Program-made: the position numbers and the translations under genes
The notes under the pieces: model-generated
What the model was told of the DNA's origin: nothing
Databases searched by the model: none
What the model saw: only the letters and a program-made list of their open reading frames with translations
Part shown: in pieces, positions 10,076 through 63,562 of the stretch
How positions within the stretch are numbered: position 1 is the stretch's first letter
Layout: each line of letters opens with the position of its first letter
Source of the DNA: Mycolicibacterium doricum
GTDB lineage: Bacteria; Actinomycetota; Actinomycetes; Mycobacteriales; Mycobacteriaceae
DNA: 64,000 bases
Reading direction: 5' to 3'
Assembly (NCBI RefSeq): GCF_010728155.1
Contig: NZ_AP022605.1
Span: 2,356,001-2,420,000, forward strand

Positions 10076-12547
10076 ATGGCCCGAAGGACGCTGGTGGTGG
10101 TCGGCAACGGGATGGCCGGTGTGCGCGCCATCGAAGAGATCCTGGCGCGTGGCGGTGGCGACCTGTTCCAGATCACCGTCTTCGGCGACGAACCCTACGG
10201 CAACTACAACCGTATCCTGCTGTCGAACGTGCTGGCCGGCAGCGACGATAGCTCCGAGATCTACCTGAACCCGATGGACTGGTACACCGACAACCGCATC
10301 GACCTGCGGGCCGGGGTCCGGGTGGTCAAGATCGACCGGTTCGCCCGCCTCGTGCACGCCGACGATGGCACTGTGCTGCATTACGACCATTTGATCCTCG
10401 CCACCGGCAGCCGGTCATTCTTCCCACCGATGGCGGGGCTCTGGGCGGACAACAAGACACTCACCGACGGCGTGTTCGGCTTCCGGACCCTCGACGACTG
10501 CCTCGGCATGATCCAGGAGGCCGAACACCGGACGAAGGCCGTCGTGATCGGCGGCGGCCTGCTGGGCCTGGAAGCCGCGCGCGGACTGCAGAACCGCGGC
10601 CTGACCGTCGAGGTGGTGCACGCGGGTCCGGTGCTGATGAACGCCCAACTCGACGACACCGCCGGCGCAATCCTGCGCCGTTCGGTGGAGCGGCTCGGTA
10701 TCACCGTGCACATGGACAAGCGCACCACCGAGGTGCGCACCAGCGCCGACGGAAAGCTGTGCGGCATCGTGTTCGCCGACGGCAGCGAGATCGACTGCGA
10801 CATGCTGGTCGTCGCGGCCGGCATCCGGCCCAATGTCGGCCTGGCGCAGCGAGCCGGCCTCACCGTCGAACGCGCGATTGTCGTCGACGACCACATGCGC
10901 TCGACCGACGACGACCGAATCTACGTCGTCGGCGAATGCGCGCAACACCGCGGCCAGGTCTACGGGTTGGTGGCACCCCTGTGGGAACAGGCGGGTGTGC
11001 TGGCCGCCCACCTCACCGGCACCGACCCGACTGCGGCGTACCACGGTTCCCGCACGGCGACCAAACTGAAGGTGGCCGGGGTGGACGTCGCGTCGATGGG
11101 ACTCAAGGCACCCGAACTGCCCGACGACGAATTCGTGCAGTACTCCGAGCCCAGGCATGGCGTGTACAAGACCATCGTCATCCGTGACGGAAAGCTGGTC
11201 GGCGCAACGCTGCTCGGCGACGTCAGCAAGGTGTCGTTTCTCACCCAGGCATTCGACACGGGACTGCCGCTGCCCGAGGAACGGGTGTCACTGATGTTCG
11301 ACATCGGCACCCCCGACGTCGAAGTGGGAGTGGCCGAACTCGCCGAGGACGCCCAGGTGTGCAACTGCAACGGGGTTTCGAAGGGCACGCTCGTGGATTG
11401 CGTGCGCGACGGCGTGACCTCGGTGTCGGGGGTGATGGCGAAGACGAAGGCGGGCAAGGGGTGCGGGTCCTGCAAGGAGCTCGTCGGGCAGATCGTCGAA
11501 TGGGCCGCCGGTGGCGCCGTCACCGAGGATCCGTCGACGTCCTGGTACGTGCCCGGTGTGCCGTACGACAAGCCGACGCTGATGCGTCACATTCGCGAGC
11601 TGCGACTACATTCGGTGTCCTCGGTTTTCGCCGCGCTGGCGCCGGACGGCAAGGAGGACGCGGGATCGAAGATGGCACTGGCCTCGCTGCTGGACATGAT
11701 GTGGGCGGACGAATTCGTCGACGAGCGCGACGCCCGGTTCATCAACGACCGGGTACACGCCAACATCCAGCGAGACGGCACGTTCTCAGTGGTGCCGCAG
11801 ATGAAGGGCGGCGTCACGAACCCGTGGCAGCTGCGTCGCATCGCCGACGTCGCCGACAAGTACTCGATCCCGATGATCAAACTCACCGGCGGGCAACGCG
11901 TCGACCTGCTCGGGGTGCGCAAAGAGGACCTGCCCGCGGTGTGGGCGGATCTGGACATGCCGTCGGGTTACGCGTACGGCAAGAGCTTCCGCACGGTCAA
12001 AACCTGTGTTGGCAGCGACTTCTGCCGGTTCGGCGTCGGCGACTCGACGGCGCTGGGGATCGCGATCGAGGACCGGTACAAGGGGTTGGCCAGCCCGGGA
12101 AAGATGAAGCTGGCCGTCACCGGATGCCCCCGCAACTGCGCGGAATCGCTGTGCAAGGATCTCGGTGTCGTCGCGATCGACGGCGACCGGTGGGAGATTT
12201 ACGTCGGCGGGGCAGCCGGCGCTCACGTGCGCAAGGGTGACCTACTGGCCACCGTCGGCTCCCCCGCCGAAGTGATGACGCTGACGGGGCGGTTCCTGCA
12301 GTACTACCGGGAGAACGCCAACTGGTTGGAGCGCACCTACGCGTTCGTGCCCCGCATCGGCATCGAGAAGATCCGCCAGATCGTCGTGGAGGACAGCGAG
12401 GGCATCGCCGCAGAACTCGACGCCCGGATGCAGCGCTCCGTCGACGCCTACCGCGACCCCTGGCAGGACGGCCGGGAACCGGCTACCGCGGGGCAGTTCC
12501 GGCCGTCGCTGCCGCTGCTGCCGCTGCCCCAGGTGCCGGTGCGATGA
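10076..12547 (+). CDS. nirB: Assimilatory NAD(P)H-nitrite reductase, large subunit
   Basis: This 823-residue cytoplasmic enzyme performs the six-electron reduction of nitrite to ammonium. It opens with an FAD-binding fold (VVVGNGMAGVRAIEE) and a second dinucleotide fold near residue 157 (VVIGGGLLGLEAARG). A BFD-like [2Fe-2S] domain with CNCNG and GKGCGSCKEL follows around 424-470. The sirohaem/[4Fe-4S] domain carries C644, C650, C684 and C688 (C-x5-C-x33-C-x3-C). The gene follows the small gene at 9720 by 2 nt, and its TGA overlaps an ATG that begins a short repeat-encoded leader ORF leading to nirD. It forms the holoenzyme with NirD. Confidence 0.95.
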   Translation: MARRTLVVVGNGMAGVRAIEEILARGGGDLFQITVFGDEPYGNYNRILLSNVLAGSDDSSEIYLNPMDWYTDNRIDLRAGVRVVKIDRFARLVHADDGTVLHYDHLILATGSRSFFPPMAGLWADNKTLTDGVFGFRTLDDCLGMIQEAEHRTKAVVIGGGLLGLEAARGLQNRGLTVEVVHAGPVLMNAQLDDTAGAILRRSVERLGITVHMDKRTTEVRTSADGKLCGIVFADGSEIDCDMLVVAAGIRPNVGLAQRAGLTVERAIVVDDHMRSTDDDRIYVVGECAQHRGQVYGLVAPLWEQAGVLAAHLTGTDPTAAYHGSRTATKLKVAGVDVASMGLKAPELPDDEFVQYSEPRHGVYKTIVIRDGKLVGATLLGDVSKVSFLTQAFDTGLPLPEERVSLMFDIGTPDVEVGVAELAEDAQVCNCNGVSKGTLVDCVRDGVTSVSGVMAKTKAGKGCGSCKELVGQIVEWAAGGAVTEDPSTSWYVPGVPYDKPTLMRHIRELRLHSVSSVFAALAPDGKEDAGSKMALASLLDMMWADEFVDERDARFINDRVHANIQRDGTFSVVPQMKGGVTNPWQLRRIADVADKYSIPMIKLTGGQRVDLLGVRKEDLPAVWADLDMPSGYAYGKSFRTVKTCVGSDFCRFGVGDSTALGIAIEDRYKGLASPGKMKLAVTGCPRNCAESLCKDLGVVAIDGDRWEIYVGGAAGAHVRKGDLLATVGSPAEVMTLTGRFLQYYRENANWLERTYAFVPRIGIEKIRQIVVEDSEGIAAELDARMQRSVDAYRDPWQDGREPATAGQFRPSLPLLPLPQVPVR

Positions 12548-12602
12548 GCGCCCGCGCGAAGAGCCGAGGACACCGATGAGCGCCCGCGCGAAGAGCCGAG
12601 GA
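12542..12602 (+). repeat. Direct repeat, two 29-bp copies at 32-bp spacing, between nirB and nirD
   Basis: Copies at 12542-12570 and 12574-12602 are identical. Each holds an ATG, the core GAGCGCCCGCGCGAAGAGC and a GAGGA ribosome-binding site. The array therefore duplicates a complete translation-initiation unit and leads into nirD. The same core, with two pyrimidine changes, recurs upstream of ftsZ. Confidence 0.9.
12544..12579 (+). CDS. Putative 11-residue leader ORF 1 between nirB and nirD
   Basis: The ORF encodes MSARAKSRGHR. Its ATG overlaps the nirB stop (ATGA at 12544-12547) and its own TGA overlaps the ATG of leader ORF 2. This arrangement allows ribosomes to terminate and restart. 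Expression is inferred, not shown; it may equally be a by-product of the repeat. Confidence 0.4.
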   Translation: MSARAKSRGHR

Positions 12603-12611
12603 CCCCGGTGA
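12576..12611 (+). CDS. Putative 11-residue leader ORF 2 between nirB and nirD
   Basis: The ORF encodes MSARAKSRGPR and is preceded by GAGGA (12566-12570), 5 nt from the ATG. Its TGA overlaps the nirD GTG (GTGA at 12608-12611). Together with ORF 1 it makes an unbroken chain of overlapping stops and starts from nirB to nirD. Confidence 0.4.
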   Translation: MSARAKSRGPR

Positions 12612-12916
12612 AACACGTCGAGCTCGGGTCGCTCGACGAGATCCCCGTCGGCGAGGGCCGCACGTTCACCGTCGAGGGCGACCAGATCGCGGTGTTCCGG
12701 CTGCGCGACGGGTCCCTGCGGGCCTTGGATGCAGTGTGTCCGCACCGTGGCGGACCGCTGGCCGACGGGTTGGCCGACGAGCGGGTCGTGGTGTGCCCGC
12801 TGCACGGCCAAACGTTCGACCTGTGCAGCGGTGCGGAGACGGGCGGCGCGGATGTCTCGGTACGCAGCTACGCCGTCGCCGCGGTCGACGGGGTGATCCG
12901 GCTCAGCCGATCTTGA
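12608..12916 (+). CDS. nirD: Nitrite reductase small subunit, Rieske-type
   Basis: This 102-residue protein is the small subunit of the NAD(P)H-nitrite reductase. It has a full Rieske ligand set, C44-x-H46 and C63-x2-H66, in the contexts CPHRGGP and CPLHGQTF, so it can bind a [2Fe-2S] cluster; many enterobacterial NirD proteins lack these ligands. The GTG start at 12608 is preceded by GAGGA 5 nt upstream and overlaps the stop of a short leader ORF, so expression probably depends on translation coming from nirB. No other in-frame start is better placed. Confidence 0.92.
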   Translation: MKHVELGSLDEIPVGEGRTFTVEGDQIAVFRLRDGSLRALDAVCPHRGGPLADGLADERVVVCPLHGQTFDLCSGAETGGADVSVRSYAVAAVDGVIRLSRS

Positions 12917-23804: not shown

Positions 23805-24971
23805 TCAGTGCCGCATGAACGGCGGCACGTCGACGTCGTCGTCTGCGATACCCCCGTCGCCCCGGCCGTCGCCACCGATGCTCACAGTCGCGCCGTTGGT
23901 GTGCACCGGCACGCTCGCCGGATCGGCCGGTTCGAACAGCGGCGAGGAGACCTTGCCCGCCCGCCCGGGGGCGATGGGCTGCGTGGCGGCCGCACCGGGG
24001 CTCACCACCGGATTGCGGCTCGGACCCGCCGATTCGAAACCGGCCGCGATCACGGTGACCCGGACCTCGTCGCCGAGCGAATCGTCGATCACGGTGCCGA
24101 AGATGATGTTGGCCTCGGGGTGGGCGGCGTCCTGCACCAGCGACGCTGCCTCGTTGATCTCGAAGAGCCCCAGATCGCTGCCGCCGGCCACCGAGAGCAG
24201 CACCCCCTGCGCGCCCTCCATCGAGGCTTCGAGCAGTGGCGAGTTGATTGCGATCTCGGCGGCCTTGAGCGCCCGGCCGTCACCGCGGGCCGAACCGATA
24301 CCCATCAGCGCCGTGCCCGCGCCACTCATCACACCCTTGACGTCGGCGAAGTCGACGTTGATCAGACCTGGGGTGGTGATGAGATCGGTGATGCCCTGGA
24401 CACCGTTGAGCAGCACCTCGTCGGCGCTGCGGAACGCGTCCATCAGCGACACCGCGGCGTCGCCCATCTGCAGCAGCCGGTCGTTGGGGATGACGATCAG
24501 CGTGTCGCAGCTCTCGCGTAGCGACTGGATGCCGTTCTCGGCCTGATTGCTGCGCCGCTTGCCCTCGAACGAGAACGGCCGCGTCACCACGCCGACCGTC
24601 AGCGCGCCCAGCTTGCGGGCGATGGACGCCACCACCGGCGCGCCACCGGTACCGGTGCCGCCGCCCTCGCCGGCGGTGACGAACACCATGTCGGCGCCGC
24701 GCAGGAGTTCTTCGATGTCGTCCTTGGCGTCCTCGGCGGCCTTGCGGCCCACCTCGGGGTCGGCCCCCGCTCCGAGCCCGCGCGTCGAGTCCCGCCCGAC
24801 GTCGAGCTTGACGTCCGCGTCGCTCATCAACAACGCCTGGGCGTCGGTGTTGATGGCGATGAACTCCACACCCTTGAGGCCCTGTTCGATCATCCGGTTG
24901 ACGGCGTTCACGCCACCGCCGCCGATGCCGACCACCTTGATGACGGCGAGGTAGTTGTGCGGCGGGGTCAT
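23805..24971 (-). CDS. ftsZ: Cell division GTPase FtsZ
   Basis: This 388-residue tubulin homologue forms the Z ring. GGGTGTG (103-109) is the GTP-binding signature, the T7 loop lies in [11 protein letters not shown], and the C-terminal peptide [12 protein letters not shown] is the binding site for partners such as SepF. The start at 24971 gives the conserved [14 protein letters not shown] and has AGAAGG 7 nt upstream. The frame is open a further 61 codons upstream, which would encode repeated [11 protein letters not shown] units, but this is more likely a side effect of a 33-bp repeat. In the other frame that repeat encodes a leader ORF ending with ATGA over this start. Confidence 0.96.
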
Positions 24972-25099
24972 CGCTCGACCTTCTTCGCGCAAGCGCTCAT
25001 ACCCTGCCACTTGCTCTTCGCGCAAGCGCTCATCCCCTGCGACCTGCTCTTCGCGCAAGCGCTCATCCCCTGCGACCTGCTCTTCGCGCAAGCGCTCAT
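24968..25099 (-). CDS. Putative 43-residue repeat-encoded leader ORF before ftsZ
   Basis: The ORF runs from ATG at 25099 (AGAAAGG about 10 nt upstream) to a TGA at 24970-24968 that overlaps the ftsZ ATG. It consists of four units: two of [11 protein letters not shown], one [11 protein letters not shown] and [10 protein letters not shown]. The shape is that of a leader peptide coupled to ftsZ translation. The unit sequence is closely related to the MSARAKSRG leaders before nirD. It may be non-coding repeat DNA that merely stays open; no expression evidence exists here. Confidence 0.4.
24983..25099 (-). repeat. 33-bp tandem repeat upstream of ftsZ, four cores
   Basis: An 18-bp core (CTTCGCGCAAGCGCTCAT on the plus strand) starts at 24983, 25016, 25049 and 25082, exactly 33 bp apart. 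The 15-bp spacers are nearly identical, and two of them are exactly the same. The period is a multiple of three, so two frames stay open across the array. Confidence 0.93.
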
Positions 25100-25185
25100 C
25101 GGCGTCGCCTTTCTGCTGCCTGGTTGTCAGTACTCGTGCGAAGCCTTCCCGCAAACCCTAAACCTCAACCACAGGCTTAGAGTTA

Positions 25186-25191
25186 TGTCAA
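25186..25191 (-). promoter_or_regulatory. TTGACA element in the ftsQ-ftsZ gap, possible ftsZ promoter
   Basis: A perfect TTGACA on the minus strand lies about 215 bp before ftsZ and about 87 bp before the leader ORF. A TAGGGT hexamer occurs downstream, but at a poor distance (about 25 bp), so the -10 element is uncertain. The 299-bp ftsQ-ftsZ gap is the only sizeable gap in this stretch of the cluster and is a known place for ftsZ promoters in mycobacteria. Confidence 0.35.
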
Positions 25192-25270
25192 GTTGATCCG
25201 CGCAACCAGAACGGTAAGGCGACGCTCCGGATCGACCATGCAGGCGCGCCGACGGTGTCGGCACGAATTT

Positions 25271-26196
25271 CTACTTGACCGTGGGCAAATCCGGGCTCGA
25301 CACGTCATACGCTCGACCCGGCTGCGTGAGCAGCGCTGCCAGCTTGAGTGCCTTCTCGTCAGTGCGGTCGGTGGTCCCCCACACCACCACCCGACCGTCG
25401 ACGAGAGTCAGCGTGATCGACGCCACCGAGGGCGCGGCAATCCGCCCCACCTGACCGGCCACCTCGGGCGGCAGCGCCAGCATCACCTGCAGCGCCGCCT
25501 CGGTCGCCGGATCGTTCGGACCCGGTGTCGCGGTCTCCAGATACGGCAGGTTGGGCGGCGGCGGTGCGGTAGCGAAATCCACACCGTCGCGGTCGAACAG
25601 GTGCGGACCGTCCGGATAGTCCTTGACCACCACCGGCACCCGTTCGACGACAGTGATCCGCAGCGAGGACGGGTACTCACGCTGCACCCGGGCACTGGCG
25701 ACCGGCCGGATGGTCGCGACGCGTTCGGCCACGGCGTCGGTGTCGACCTGCAGCAGCGGAGTGCCGGACACCACGGCAGCGGCGGCGAGCACCTCTTCTC
25801 GTGGGACCGCCTGCACACCGACGACGACGATGTCGCGTACCGACATGATCGGGGTGAAGTAGAGCAGAAGCCCGAGGACGACCGCGACGACCGACAGCAG
25901 CGCCGACCACACCAGCACCTTCAGACCGCGTACCGCCCGGCGGTCGATGGGTGTCGCCTCCCGGACCGGACCGCTGACCACCCGTCGTCGGGCCTCGCGG
26001 CGGGCCTCCTCGATGGCCATAGCGCGGTCCTTCACCGCACGGCGCTGCTCCCGCTCCCGCCGGGCGCGGCGGCGGGGTCCCTCGTGGTCCTCGTCGCCCG
26101 CGGGTGGGTTCTCGGCCGGTGGGGCCGTCGGCGGCGGGGTGAGTTCCTCCGGCGCCGCCTCGGGCTGATCCGGAGCCGGACCGGACGGCGGCAACG

Positions 26197-38882: not shown

Positions 38883-39991
38883 GGCGCGTCCCTCCTGGCC
38901 GTCTCTGGCCTGCTGGCGACCTTCTCCAACGCGCGCAACCGCACCGGAGCACTGCGCGGGTTGCGTTCGATCTCCTCGGGGGTGGCTCGTTCGGCCCCGC
39001 GAGTGATGGCGACGAAATCGGGTTCATGGCCGGGTAGTTCGACGGGCAGACCGGGTGGCGTTCGCGACGCGGTGGCCGCGCCGAACTCGGTCTTGACGAT
39101 GCGGTCCTCCAGCGACTGGTAGGCCATCACGACGATCCGTCCGCCGGGCTCGATGGCGGCCAGGGCAGCGGGGAGCGCGGCGCGCAGGGAGTCCAGCTCG
39201 CCGTTGACCGCGATCCGCAGGGCCTGGAACGTGCGTTTGGCCGGATGCCCGCCGGTCCGCCTGGCCGGTGCGGGGATCGCGTCGTAGAGCAGCTCGACCA
39301 GTTCACCCGTGGTCGTCAGTGGCCGGCGTCGCACGATGTGTTTGGCGATGCGGCCGGCGAACCGTTCCTCGCCGAATTCCCGGAGGATCCGTGCGATGTC
39401 CTTCTCCGCGAACGTGTTGACGACCTCCGCTGCGGTCAGCGGGGCTTCGCTATCCATGCGCATGTCCAGTGGGGCGTCCGCCCTGTAGGAGAATCCCCGC
39501 TCGGTGCGGTCGAGTTGCATCGACGACACTCCGAGGTCGAATAGAACTCCGCCGACCTCGTCCACGCCCGCCTGCGCCAGGGCGTCGTCGATCCCGTCGT
39601 AGCGGGTGCGCACGAGGGTCGCCCGGTCACCGAACGGTGCGAGCCGCTCGCCGGCGATCTGCAGCGCCTGCGGGTCGCGGTCCAATCCGATGAGGTGCAG
39701 TCCGGGTAGATCGCTGAGGAACCGGTGGGCGTGGCCGCCCGCGCCCAGTGTGGCGTCGACCAGGACGGCGCCACGGCCGTCGGGATTCCGGCGGGTCAGT
39801 GCCGGGGTGAGCAGTTCGACGCAACGGTCCAGGAGGACCGGAATGTGCTCCATCGCCACCCCCGGGCTGCACGCCCCTGCAGCGAGGTCCCTGTCCGAGG
39901 CGGACCTGGCGTCGGGGAAGTACGCCAGGGCCGGTTCGGACAGAGGCCACGCTGCAAGGGCCGGTTCAAATGACGTCGCGCAGAGTTTCAT
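38879..39991 (-). CDS. rsmH: 16S rRNA (cytosine1402-N4)-methyltransferase
   Basis: This SAM-dependent methyltransferase (MraW) modifies C1402 in the decoding centre. [14 protein letters not shown] is the SAM-binding loop; [14 protein letters not shown] and [16 protein letters not shown] are family landmarks; the end reads [16 protein letters not shown]. The full frame gives 370 residues and overlaps mraZ by 26 bp. Starting at 39853 ([15 protein letters not shown]) would give 324 residues, the usual bacterial length. The extension [20 protein letters not shown] resembles that annotated for M. tuberculosis Rv2165c, so I keep the longer form with the start uncertain. Confidence 0.92.
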
Positions 39992-43748: not shown

Positions 43749-45308
43749 ATGGTCACACCCACCCCGACCGACACGCCGAAACCCGCTGCGGCGCGGCATG
43801 TCGCACGGCTGGTCGCTTTCACCAGGTCGCCGTCCGCGAAGCCCGCGCTGCTCGGTTTCGTCGGCGCCGCGCTGATCACGGCCGGGGGGCTCGGAGCCGG
43901 CAGCACCCGGGTACACGATCCTCTGCTCGAATCGCTGCACCTTTCCTGGCTGCGCTTCGGTCACGGCCTGGTGTTGTCCTCGACGCTGCTGTGGGGCGGC
44001 GTCGCGATGATGCTGGTGGCCTGGTTGTGGCTGGGCCGACGGGTCATCGCTGGCGTTCCGGGGCGCTCCACCGACGAATACACCATGGTCGCCACCACGG
44101 GGTTCTGGCTCGCACCGCTGCTGCTTAGCGTCCCGGTATTCAGCCGCGACACCTACTCGTATCTGGCGCAGGGGGCGCTGCTGCGCGACGGTTTCGACCC
44201 CTACGTCGTCGGACCGATCGCCAACCCCAACCCGCTGCTCGACGACGTCAGCCCAATCTGGACCACCACCACGGCACCGTACGGGCCGGCGTTCATCATG
44301 GTCGCAAAGTTCGTGACCATGATCGTCGGCGAACACGTGGTCGCGGGGACGATGCTGCTGCGGCTCTGCATGCTGCCCGGCCTGATCCTGCTGATCTGGG
44401 CGGCCCCACGGATCGCCCGCCACATCGGCGCCAGCGGCGCTGCGGCGCTGTGGATCTGCGTGCTCAACCCGCTGGTGATCATCCACCTCATGGGTGGCGT
44501 CCACAATGAGATGCTGATGGTCGGGCTGATGATGGCCGGGCTGGCACTGGCCCTGAACAACCGCCCGGCGGCGGGCGTCGCGGTGATCGTCGTCGCCGTC
44601 GCGGTCAAAGCGACCGCCGGACTGGCGCTGCCGTTCACCGTCTGGATTTGGATGCGACAGCTGAGCGATCGCCGGGGCTACCGCGCGCCGCGGGCCTTCG
44701 TGACGGCCACCACCGCGGCGCTGCTGATCTTCGTCGCCGTCTTCGCGGTGTTGTCCTGGGTCGCCGGCGTCGGCCTGGGATGGCTGTCGGCGCTGGCGGC
44801 CGGAAACGTCAAGATCATCAACTGGTTGACGCTGCCGACGGCGGCGGCGAACCTGACCAACGCGGTGGGCGGACTGTTCCTGCCGGTGAACTTCTACGCC
44901 GTCGTCGACGTCACCCGCATCGTCGGCCTGGCGATCATCGTGGTCACGCTTCCGCTGCTGTGGTGGCGGTTCCGCCACGACGACCGCGAAGCGCTGATCG
45001 GCATCACCTCGGTGATGCTCGTGTTCGTGCTGTTCGTGCCCGCCGCACTGCCGTGGTACTACACCTGGCCGCTGGCGGTGGTCTCCGCACTGGCCCAGTC
45101 GAGGCGGTCGATCGCGTTGATCGCCGGGTTCTCCACCTGGATCATGGTGATCTTCAAACCCGACGGGGCACACGGCATGTATTCGTGGCTGCACGTCTTG
45201 CTCGCCGCGGGATGCGCTGTGGTGGCGTGGTATTCGCTGGCGAAGGTCGAGCCCGGCCCGGCCGGGTTCGACAGTCCCGCTGACCGGTCAGTACGCCACC
45301 ACCGCTGA
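43749..45308 (+). CDS. mptA: Alpha-1,6-mannosyltransferase MptA
   Basis: This 519-residue GT-C polytopic membrane enzyme elongates the mannan backbone of lipomannan and lipoarabinomannan using polyprenyl-phosphate mannose at the outer face. Some 12-13 helices are visible. The first extracytoplasmic loop has SRDTYSYLAQG, the GT-C aspartate motif, followed by YGPAF and NPLVIIHLMGGVHNEMLMVG. The start is 2 nt after the idsA2 stop. The C-terminal residues are encoded in a 25-bp repeat array that runs through the stop codon. Confidence 0.9.
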   Translation: MVTPTPTDTPKPAAARHVARLVAFTRSPSAKPALLGFVGAALITAGGLGAGSTRVHDPLLESLHLSWLRFGHGLVLSSTLLWGGVAMMLVAWLWLGRRVIAGVPGRSTDEYTMVATTGFWLAPLLLSVPVFSRDTYSYLAQGALLRDGFDPYVVGPIANPNPLLDDVSPIWTTTTAPYGPAFIMVAKFVTMIVGEHVVAGTMLLRLCMLPGLILLIWAAPRIARHIGASGAAALWICVLNPLVIIHLMGGVHNEMLMVGLMMAGLALALNNRPAAGVAVIVVAVAVKATAGLALPFTVWIWMRQLSDRRGYRAPRAFVTATTAALLIFVAVFAVLSWVAGVGLGWLSALAAGNVKIINWLTLPTAAANLTNAVGGLFLPVNFYAVVDVTRIVGLAIIVVTLPLLWWRFRHDDREALIGITSVMLVFVLFVPAALPWYYTWPLAVVSALAQSRRSIALIAGFSTWIMVIFKPDGAHGMYSWLHVLLAAGCAVVAWYSLAKVEPGPAGFDSPADRSVRHHR

Positions 45309-45375
45309 GCGGTCAATATGCCACCACCGCTGAGCGGTCAATATGCCACGACCGCTGAGCGGTCAATATGCCATC
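45276..45375. repeat. 25-bp tandem repeats with a dyad, between mptA and the Rv2175c-like gene
   Basis: Three near-perfect 25-bp copies (45301, 45326, 45351) and a diverged one (45276) each contain ACCGCTGAGCGGT, a dyad of 6-bp arms around one central base, followed by CAATATGCCA. The array covers the stop codons of both convergent genes (mptA at 45306-45308, the Rv2175c-like gene at 45363-45365). One copy on the minus strand contains the last codons and stop of the latter, so the array looks like duplications of its 3' end. Confidence 0.9.

Positions 45376-61680: not shown

Positions 61681-63562
<1,882 letters not shown>

Follow-up and report, generated by a model that had tools for sequence, protein, structure and literature searches.

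A short MIRU-like repeat family at gene junctions of Mycolicibacterium doricum and a putative translational leader of ftsZ

Between ftsQ and ftsZ of M. doricum, on the minus strand, a four-unit tandem array runs up to the ftsZ start codon. This raises the question of how ribosomes reach ftsZ and what part, if any, the array plays. We examined the array within the 64-kb window (the whole stretch of DNA analyzed, 64,000 nucleotides), in the complete M. doricum genome, and across the genus.

The leader frame and its repeat units

The initial annotation described a 33-bp tandem repeat that keeps an ORF open from the ATG at 25099 to a TGA overlapping the ftsZ ATG, with an ATG and a Cys codon in each unit and a second open frame, that of ftsZ, upstream of the gene. 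The sequence and its translation bear this description out. The ftsZ gene (23805..24971, minus strand) was identified with TIGR00065 ftsZ of NCBIfam (418 bits, cut-off of 295.2). The leader ORF (24968..25099, minus strand) has 43 codons plus TGA and consists of four fused units starting at 25099, 25066, 25033, and 25000. Unit 1 (ATGAGCGCTTGCGCGAAGAGCAGGTCGCAGGGG; 25067..25099) and unit 2 (25034..25066), both 33 bp and identical, were delimited by sequence, Tandem Repeats Finder, and the unit pattern. By sequence and the unit pattern, unit 3 (33 bp; 25001..25033) has a diverged spacer and unit 4 (29 bp; 24972..25000) ends at the ftsZ ATG. Because the 33-bp period fuses the units into a single ORF, the four ATGs share one stop. 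This stop (24970-24968) overlaps the ftsZ ATG (24971-24969) on the same strand as ATGA (24968..24971), which is the geometry of coupling by overlapping codons.

A Shine-Dalgarno (SD) sequence, AGAAAGG (25108..25114), lies 8 nt 5' of the leader ATG (25099-25097), and a weaker SD-like AAGAAGG (24979..24985) lies within unit 4, 7 nt 5' of the ftsZ ATG. The predicted pairing was -8.9 kcal/mol at ATG 25099, -7.6, -7.6, and -4.5 kcal/mol at the inner ATGs, and -6.8 kcal/mol at ftsZ; the ATGs of the strand (n = 658) have a median of -4.9 kcal/mol and a 25th percentile of -7.3 kcal/mol. The 16S tail (anti-SD) letters used for pairing are assumed ones.

The array is not a chance pattern. Tandem Repeats Finder reported a period of 33, 3.6 copies, and 96% matches, with a score of 217, the highest of its 23 rows in the 64-kb window. 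Besides, the unit pattern matched six times in the window (four at ftsZ and two at a second array), compared with 0.08 expected. A block, TTGACATAACTCTAAGCC..., upstream of ftsZ recurs among the upstream sequences compared. Neither sigma-70-type promoter patterns nor terminator patterns were found in 24950-25320. The leader RNA folded no better than shuffled sequences (z of 0.37). We also considered a regulatory RNA at the ftsZ leader and rejected it, there being no Rfam match at the array and no unusual fold. The two Rfam matches above threshold in the window, both mraW RNA (RF01746), lie away from the array at 39865-39969, one on each strand (81.4 bits on the minus strand versus 52.1 bits on the plus strand).

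Both Tandem Repeats Finder and the unit pattern also found the second array, which lies on the plus strand (12544..12607), has two units of 32 bp, and belongs to the same family. Its mini-ORFs read MSARAKSRGHR and then MSARAKSRGPR. The TGA of the upstream ORF (10076..12547, plus strand), which we take to be nirB-like, overlaps the first unit as ATGA, and the stop of the last mini-ORF overlaps as GTGA the start of a nirD-like ORF (12608..12916, plus strand), whose best NCBIfam match, TIGR02378 NirD, scores 67.8 bits, below the cut-off of 74.65.

Other repeats were seen on the plus strand of the window. At 63460-63562, a different array of about seven 15-bp units (GTCCGATGAGCTCGA) begins at the stop of a presumably ctaE-like gene (ATGA) and keeps to the frame of a presumably qcrC-like gene, extending the peptide ahead of MISKSRR; it is another in-frame expansion at a stop-start junction. 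At 45277-45373, there is a 25-bp tandem repeat (CCGCTGAGCGGTCAATATGCCACCA; 3.9 copies, 94% matches) with a near-palindrome, CCGCTGAGCGG, inside its unit.

A dispersed family at gene junctions

The repeat also occurs away from ftsZ: what has been multiplied in tandem here is a single copy of a dispersed family. The pattern GATGAGCGCNNGCGCGAAGAG, with up to two mismatches, matched 50 times in the 4,029,398-base (4.03-Mb) M. doricum genome, and the reversed unit pattern had no match in the same genome. An exact 20-mer was present in 38 of 60 genomes sampled from the genus, M. doricum included, and in 33 of the 53 good-quality genomes among these 60. Furthermore, the exact pattern GATGAGCGCNTGCGCGAAGA matched 4 of 121 genomes of the family, all of them among the 7 members of the same genus, and none of the 114 genomes that represent 30 other genera.

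The element consists of a core of about 19 to 23 bp (ATGAGCGCTTGCGCGAAGA...) and a locus-specific spacer, 26 to 35 bp in total and usually 32 or 33 bp. The core reads MSACAK in frame 1 (ATG AGC GCT TGC GCG AAG) and DERLRE in frame 2 (GAT GAG CGC TTG CGC GAA), and frame 3 opens with TGA, ending an upstream gene. Since the start codon of the element contains a stop (ATGA), about 10 codons stay open behind it, and its end overlaps the next start, translation would have kept running from gene to gene after an insertion at a gene boundary. A short intercistronic element family that is spread in the genus and appears to keep translation continuous was absent from the initial annotation.

We examined 27 loci in the M. 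doricum genome, two of them inside the window, and counted the 25 with a clear core, a dispersal at tens of loci as in MIRUs. L014 and L015 were left out for want of a clear core, L106 to L110 were left out as chance-like, and for L010 and L023 no upstream value entered the counts. At 18 of the 25 loci, the first unit is linked to the stop codon of an upstream gene, as ATGA in eight, as TGATG in seven, by a TGA two bases before the unit in two, and by a TAG seven bases before it in one. The stop of the last mini-ORF overlaps the downstream start at 13 loci (ATGA or GTGA in 10 and TGATG in 3), a geometry from which coupling itself is predicted. Twelve of the 25, at junctions such as sdhA-sdhB and nuoD-nuoE, are joined at both ends: an upstream stop lies no more than 10 nt from the first unit, and the downstream start is overlapped; the ftsZ locus has downstream coupling only. 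The downstream start comes 2 bases past the mini-ORF stop at L002 and 7 bases past it at L008, and at L007 a downstream TTGA start lies outside the relay frame. Six loci lack downstream coupling, three being tied upstream only (L003, L018, and L021) and three at neither end (L004, L005, and L010). Inside the genes at L013, L022, and L023, the element is read as peptide in another frame.

The flanking genes look like operon partners. By profile search, the flanking pairs are DnaJ and a MerR-family gene, succinate dehydrogenase flavoprotein and iron-sulfur genes (sdhA-sdhB), an acyl-CoA carboxylase epsilon gene and maf, a complex I 49-kDa gene and nuoE (nuoD-nuoE), an aminotransferase class V gene and mnmA, an FHA-domain gene and ftsR, a His_biosynth gene and hisI, glucose-6-phosphate dehydrogenase and opcA (zwf-opcA), an ABC permease pair (L019), and an acyl-CoA dehydrogenase pair (L001); nuoL lies downstream of one further copy. 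Short gene names that go further than the profile names are assumed, and we take the gene before nuoL to be nuoK.

Three- or four-unit arrays stand at seven other loci of this genome (L001, L006, L008, L012, L013, L020, and L105). The four-unit array at L105 (1675575-1675688 of the genome), which lies between the glucose-6-phosphate dehydrogenase and opcA genes, has lost its start in every unit, because ACG stands for ATG throughout; it is still joined at both ends and looks homogenized. The gene that bears the element at L013 encodes a HIT protein. At L023 (3535849-3535901 of the genome), two units lie inside an arabinofuranosyltransferase gene and are read in frame as DERSREEQMA repeats; directly behind the array, the protein picks up the Pfam AftA_N profile at position 345 of 429, followed by AftA_C.

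Two adjacent units were found in 38 of 98 genomes of the genus with a pattern that allows periods of 22 to 52 bp. From the matches listed we compiled a period set of 82 entries (78 arrays, 20 of the 38 matching genomes), taking one spacer per array, plus a second for arrays with more than one period and for G089, where the spacer itself differed; spacer variants of equal length within an array were otherwise left out. Among the matches listed, the periods were 32 bp (54 entries), 33 bp (20), 30 bp (4), and 26, 29, 31, and 35 bp (once each). A period compatible with a relay from unit to unit was thereby found in 81 of these 82 listed entries, 57 being 3n + 2 and 24 being 3n, and one listed array with a 31-bp period breaks the relay. 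In the 3n + 2 entries among the matches listed, the mini-ORF stop falls exactly at the next ATG in 56 of 57 (43 as ATGA and 13 as TGATG), and in the listed 3n entries the frame stays open in 23 of 24. The listed 3n entries alone cannot tell which frame is used, since the DERLRE frame is open in 23 of 24 too. Altogether, the frame runs as the relay requires in 79 of the 82 entries among the matches listed. Premature stops occurred in 2 of these 82 listed entries, versus a mean of 8.8 in shuffled spacers, and 0.3% of shuffles were as low; both exceptions come from one array of G026. The predominance of 32 and 33 bp may partly reflect the length of the founding unit, and selection is therefore better supported by the rarer lengths and by the spacer stops. 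The genome G026 has 31 tandem pairs by the pair pattern, and two arrays of about eight units (C1:386640-386872 and C6:106845-107084).

Sites with and without the element can be compared at nuoK-nuoL. A search with a NuoK-like protein gave matches in 57 of 60 genomes of the genus. Among the best 30 loci of this 57-genome match set, which lean to near relatives, 5 are filled by the element and 25 are empty. The element lies at the nuoK stop, with four units in M. doricum and two, one, one, and one degenerate unit in the others; unit number thus differs between species here, as it does at ftsZ. Two of the five filled loci (L129, with one change, and L130) carry AGGCACTGA to the left and right of the element, as a target duplication would leave it; in the other three this repeat is partial or absent. 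Over 25 M. doricum loci, flanks of the same locus were more alike than re-paired flanks (mean score of 15.4 versus 12.7; 0 of 5,000 permutations as high). L003 and L024 carry much of this signal, the score without them being about 13.8 by hand arithmetic, and flanks at other M. doricum loci are weakly repeated. Target-site duplication by an element that may be mobile is a possibility that these flanks suggest. MIRUs are reportedly inserted at DTGA sites.

The ftsZ site across the genus and the competing readings

A pattern of GCGCGAAG plus the ftsZ start matched 17 of 396 genomes of the genus, giving the same match of 39 nt every time. Because it needs GCGCGAAG to be kept, this pattern would overlook degraded copies. 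The 17 filled genomes are not 17 independent tests, since they are related. Judged by ftsQ, this is the genus Mycobacterium/Mycolicibacterium; the nearest named matches were Mycobacterium sp. IS-1742, GA-2829, and IS-1496. The leader ATG is kept in all 17. Its distance to the ftsZ ATG is 29 nt in 16 of them and 23 nt in the remaining one, L119, whose leader has lost 6 nt in frame; the FtsQ and ftsZ of L119 are identical to those of L026 of Mycobacterium sp. GA-2829. The overlap of leader stop and ftsZ start is likewise kept in all 17, as ATGA in 16 and as TGATG, read by eye from the sequence, in L126. A further reading of 96 ftsZ loci, with some duplicates between two sources, found 22 filled, and all 96, filled or empty, start ATGA. 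On each of the FtsQ and ftsZ trees (91 distinct sequences, 18 filled), at least six changes are needed by parsimony; thus, the ftsZ site was gained or lost several times. Conservation of the leader ATG and the overlap in all 17 matches supports, on comparative grounds, the proposal of the initial annotation that ribosomes on the leader would be delivered to ftsZ, and frame conservation makes its alternative, that the repeat is merely noncoding, appear disfavored.

Filled and empty sites also differ in predicted SD pairing. At empty sites, the pairing upstream of ftsZ has a median of -10.3 kcal/mol (66 contexts); at filled sites, the medians are -8.2 kcal/mol for ftsZ and -8.9 kcal/mol for the leader (18 contexts each), in a comparison of related sequences that ignores kinship. 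The M. doricum leader entered its group median by its innermost ATG, and the value at ATG 25099 was computed apart. The weaker SD of ftsZ at filled sites fits a leader that has taken over the original ribosome-binding site. It bears, too, on the view that the element is a neutral passenger tolerated in the 5' UTR, with ftsZ starting on its own AAGAAGG and leader translation irrelevant. That motif indeed precedes the ftsZ ATG in 17 of 17 matches, with predicted pairing of -6.8 to -9.7 kcal/mol versus the strand ATG median of -4.9 kcal/mol. However, it is weaker than the SD at empty sites, the M. doricum value of -6.8 kcal/mol is ordinary for an ATG of the strand (25th percentile, -7.3 kcal/mol), the leader ATG and overlap persist in every match although the bases between SD and leader ATG vary, and the only length change of the final unit among the 17 is the in-frame 6 nt of L119. 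We therefore regard a neutral passenger as unlikely.

The second open frame allows another reading, also offered by the initial annotation, in which FtsZ gains an N-terminal extension of 11-residue repeats. The ftsZ frame is open for 62 codons upstream in M. doricum, and the same frame is read through the element in the ORFs at L013 (HIT protein), L022, and L023 (AftA). Nevertheless, two of the 17 genomes (L116 and L119) have no ATG, GTG, or TTG in frame before an in-frame stop, and in L115, L117, and L121 the sole candidate start is a TTG, by eye that of the core, without a well-placed SD. At element-free loci, the FtsZ ATG is at the same place. With no upstream start codon in L116 and L119, such an extension is very improbable.

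The Cys codon in each unit could point to an attenuator in which ribosomes stalling at leader Cys codons, or at other sensed codons, regulate ftsZ. The leader peptides differ among the 17 genomes, and the Cys is variable: cores that have TC or CC where others have TT encode Arg, as in the L116 leader, MSARAKKVER. The same core precedes genes of unrelated function, and the fold of the leader is not unusual; we give this idea almost no credence.

The initial annotation further supposed that copy number could tune FtsZ, so that unit count sets FtsZ output and slippage of the array acts as a regulatory switch. Unit number at ftsZ does vary by species, with four units in M. doricum only, two in one genome (L118, where the second, 33 bp by eye, is degenerate), and one in 15, and according to PMC2734929 a repeat upstream of fpg1 in M. 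tuberculosis correlates with the fpg1 mRNA level. Array expansion is nonetheless general and not a trait of ftsZ, since the same genome holds arrays of three or four units at the seven other loci given above, and 15 of the 17 filled sites carry a single unit. Besides, more units need not mean more FtsZ, because 33-bp units feed all ATGs to the same stop. Tuning by copy number is thus unsupported, and we hold it to be distinctly unlikely.

Among these readings, we favor a takeover of the ftsZ ribosome-binding site by a MIRU-like element of the intercistronic kind, with termination-reinitiation handing ribosomes on to ftsZ; this is probably the correct account of the sequences compared. The element would have been inserted 3' of the upstream ribosome-binding site and 5' of the ftsZ ATG. 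Ribosomes would bind at AGAAAGG and read the leader; having terminated at the TGA of ATGA, they would re-initiate at the ftsZ ATG, possibly assisted by the weaker SD-like AAGAAGG; in M. doricum, the unit would then have been duplicated to four copies. We infer leader translation and re-initiation from the overlap geometry and from the coupling literature (the review PMC12548453).

A bolder extension, which we think rather doubtful, is that mobile "stop-start cassettes" of about 20 bp have spread through mycobacterial operons because every frame of them can be read, the first as the start of a mini-ORF, another as a stop for the upstream gene, and the third as open peptide; they would be invisible to selection. 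Because translation would be carried through the junction, they could stay invisible even at the start of ftsZ, where obligatory re-initiation would replace direct initiation and array length would become a dial for FtsZ. If the takeover is real, at least 17 of the 396 genomes sampled from the genus begin ftsZ translation by re-initiation, after a mini-gene that a repeat element has brought in. The copies at nuo, sdh, his, and nitrite-reductase junctions would then be natural replicate insertions for measuring how well re-initiation preserves expression.

Relation to known repeats and coupled genes

We searched 396 genomes of the genus with a MIRU-40 primer of assumed sequence and obtained one match with one mismatch (G328), in a gene that we take for rplW, with no repeat beside it. 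In openly licensed literature, searched also with the unit letters and the peptide, no account of this shorter family turned up.

According to PMC12548453, which cites Supply et al. 1997, MIRUs occur in many mycobacteria, appear mobile, and insert at start codons in such a way that their internal ORF is coupled to the gene at -4 nt. MIRU units are given as 46 to 101 bp in PMC3914561 and as 40 to 100 bp in PMC2734929, whereas the elements here measure 26 to 35 bp (82 entries, 20 genomes, among the matches listed) and fall short of 46 to 101 bp. We therefore call the element MIRU-like and not MIRU, a distinction drawn by published unit length and not by sequence. The junctions of termination-reinitiation coupling (ATGA and TGATG) are the same as those at both ends of the element and between its units; ordinary coupling joins two genes, whereas here a repeated insert placed in the junction preserves the junction.

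The nearest precedent for tuning would be, by analogy, the fpg1 repeat. As described in PMC2734929, ETR-F/VNTR3239 of the M. tuberculosis complex is likewise an array of variable length, lying between rnc and fpg1 and ending at a start codon; unlike the array here, it has another unit structure (37 + 18 bp and others), was measured at the mRNA level, and is not at ftsZ. Ribosome profiling in mycobacteria (PMC4633059 and PMC9094748) has likewise described short translated ORFs before genes. The main texts of the two papers do not contain the words MIRU, repetitive, or interspersed, whereas the leaders here are repeat derived. The present family would add a shorter member to the MIRU kind of element and candidate VNTR loci in these species. 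The coupling principle is already known for MIRUs.
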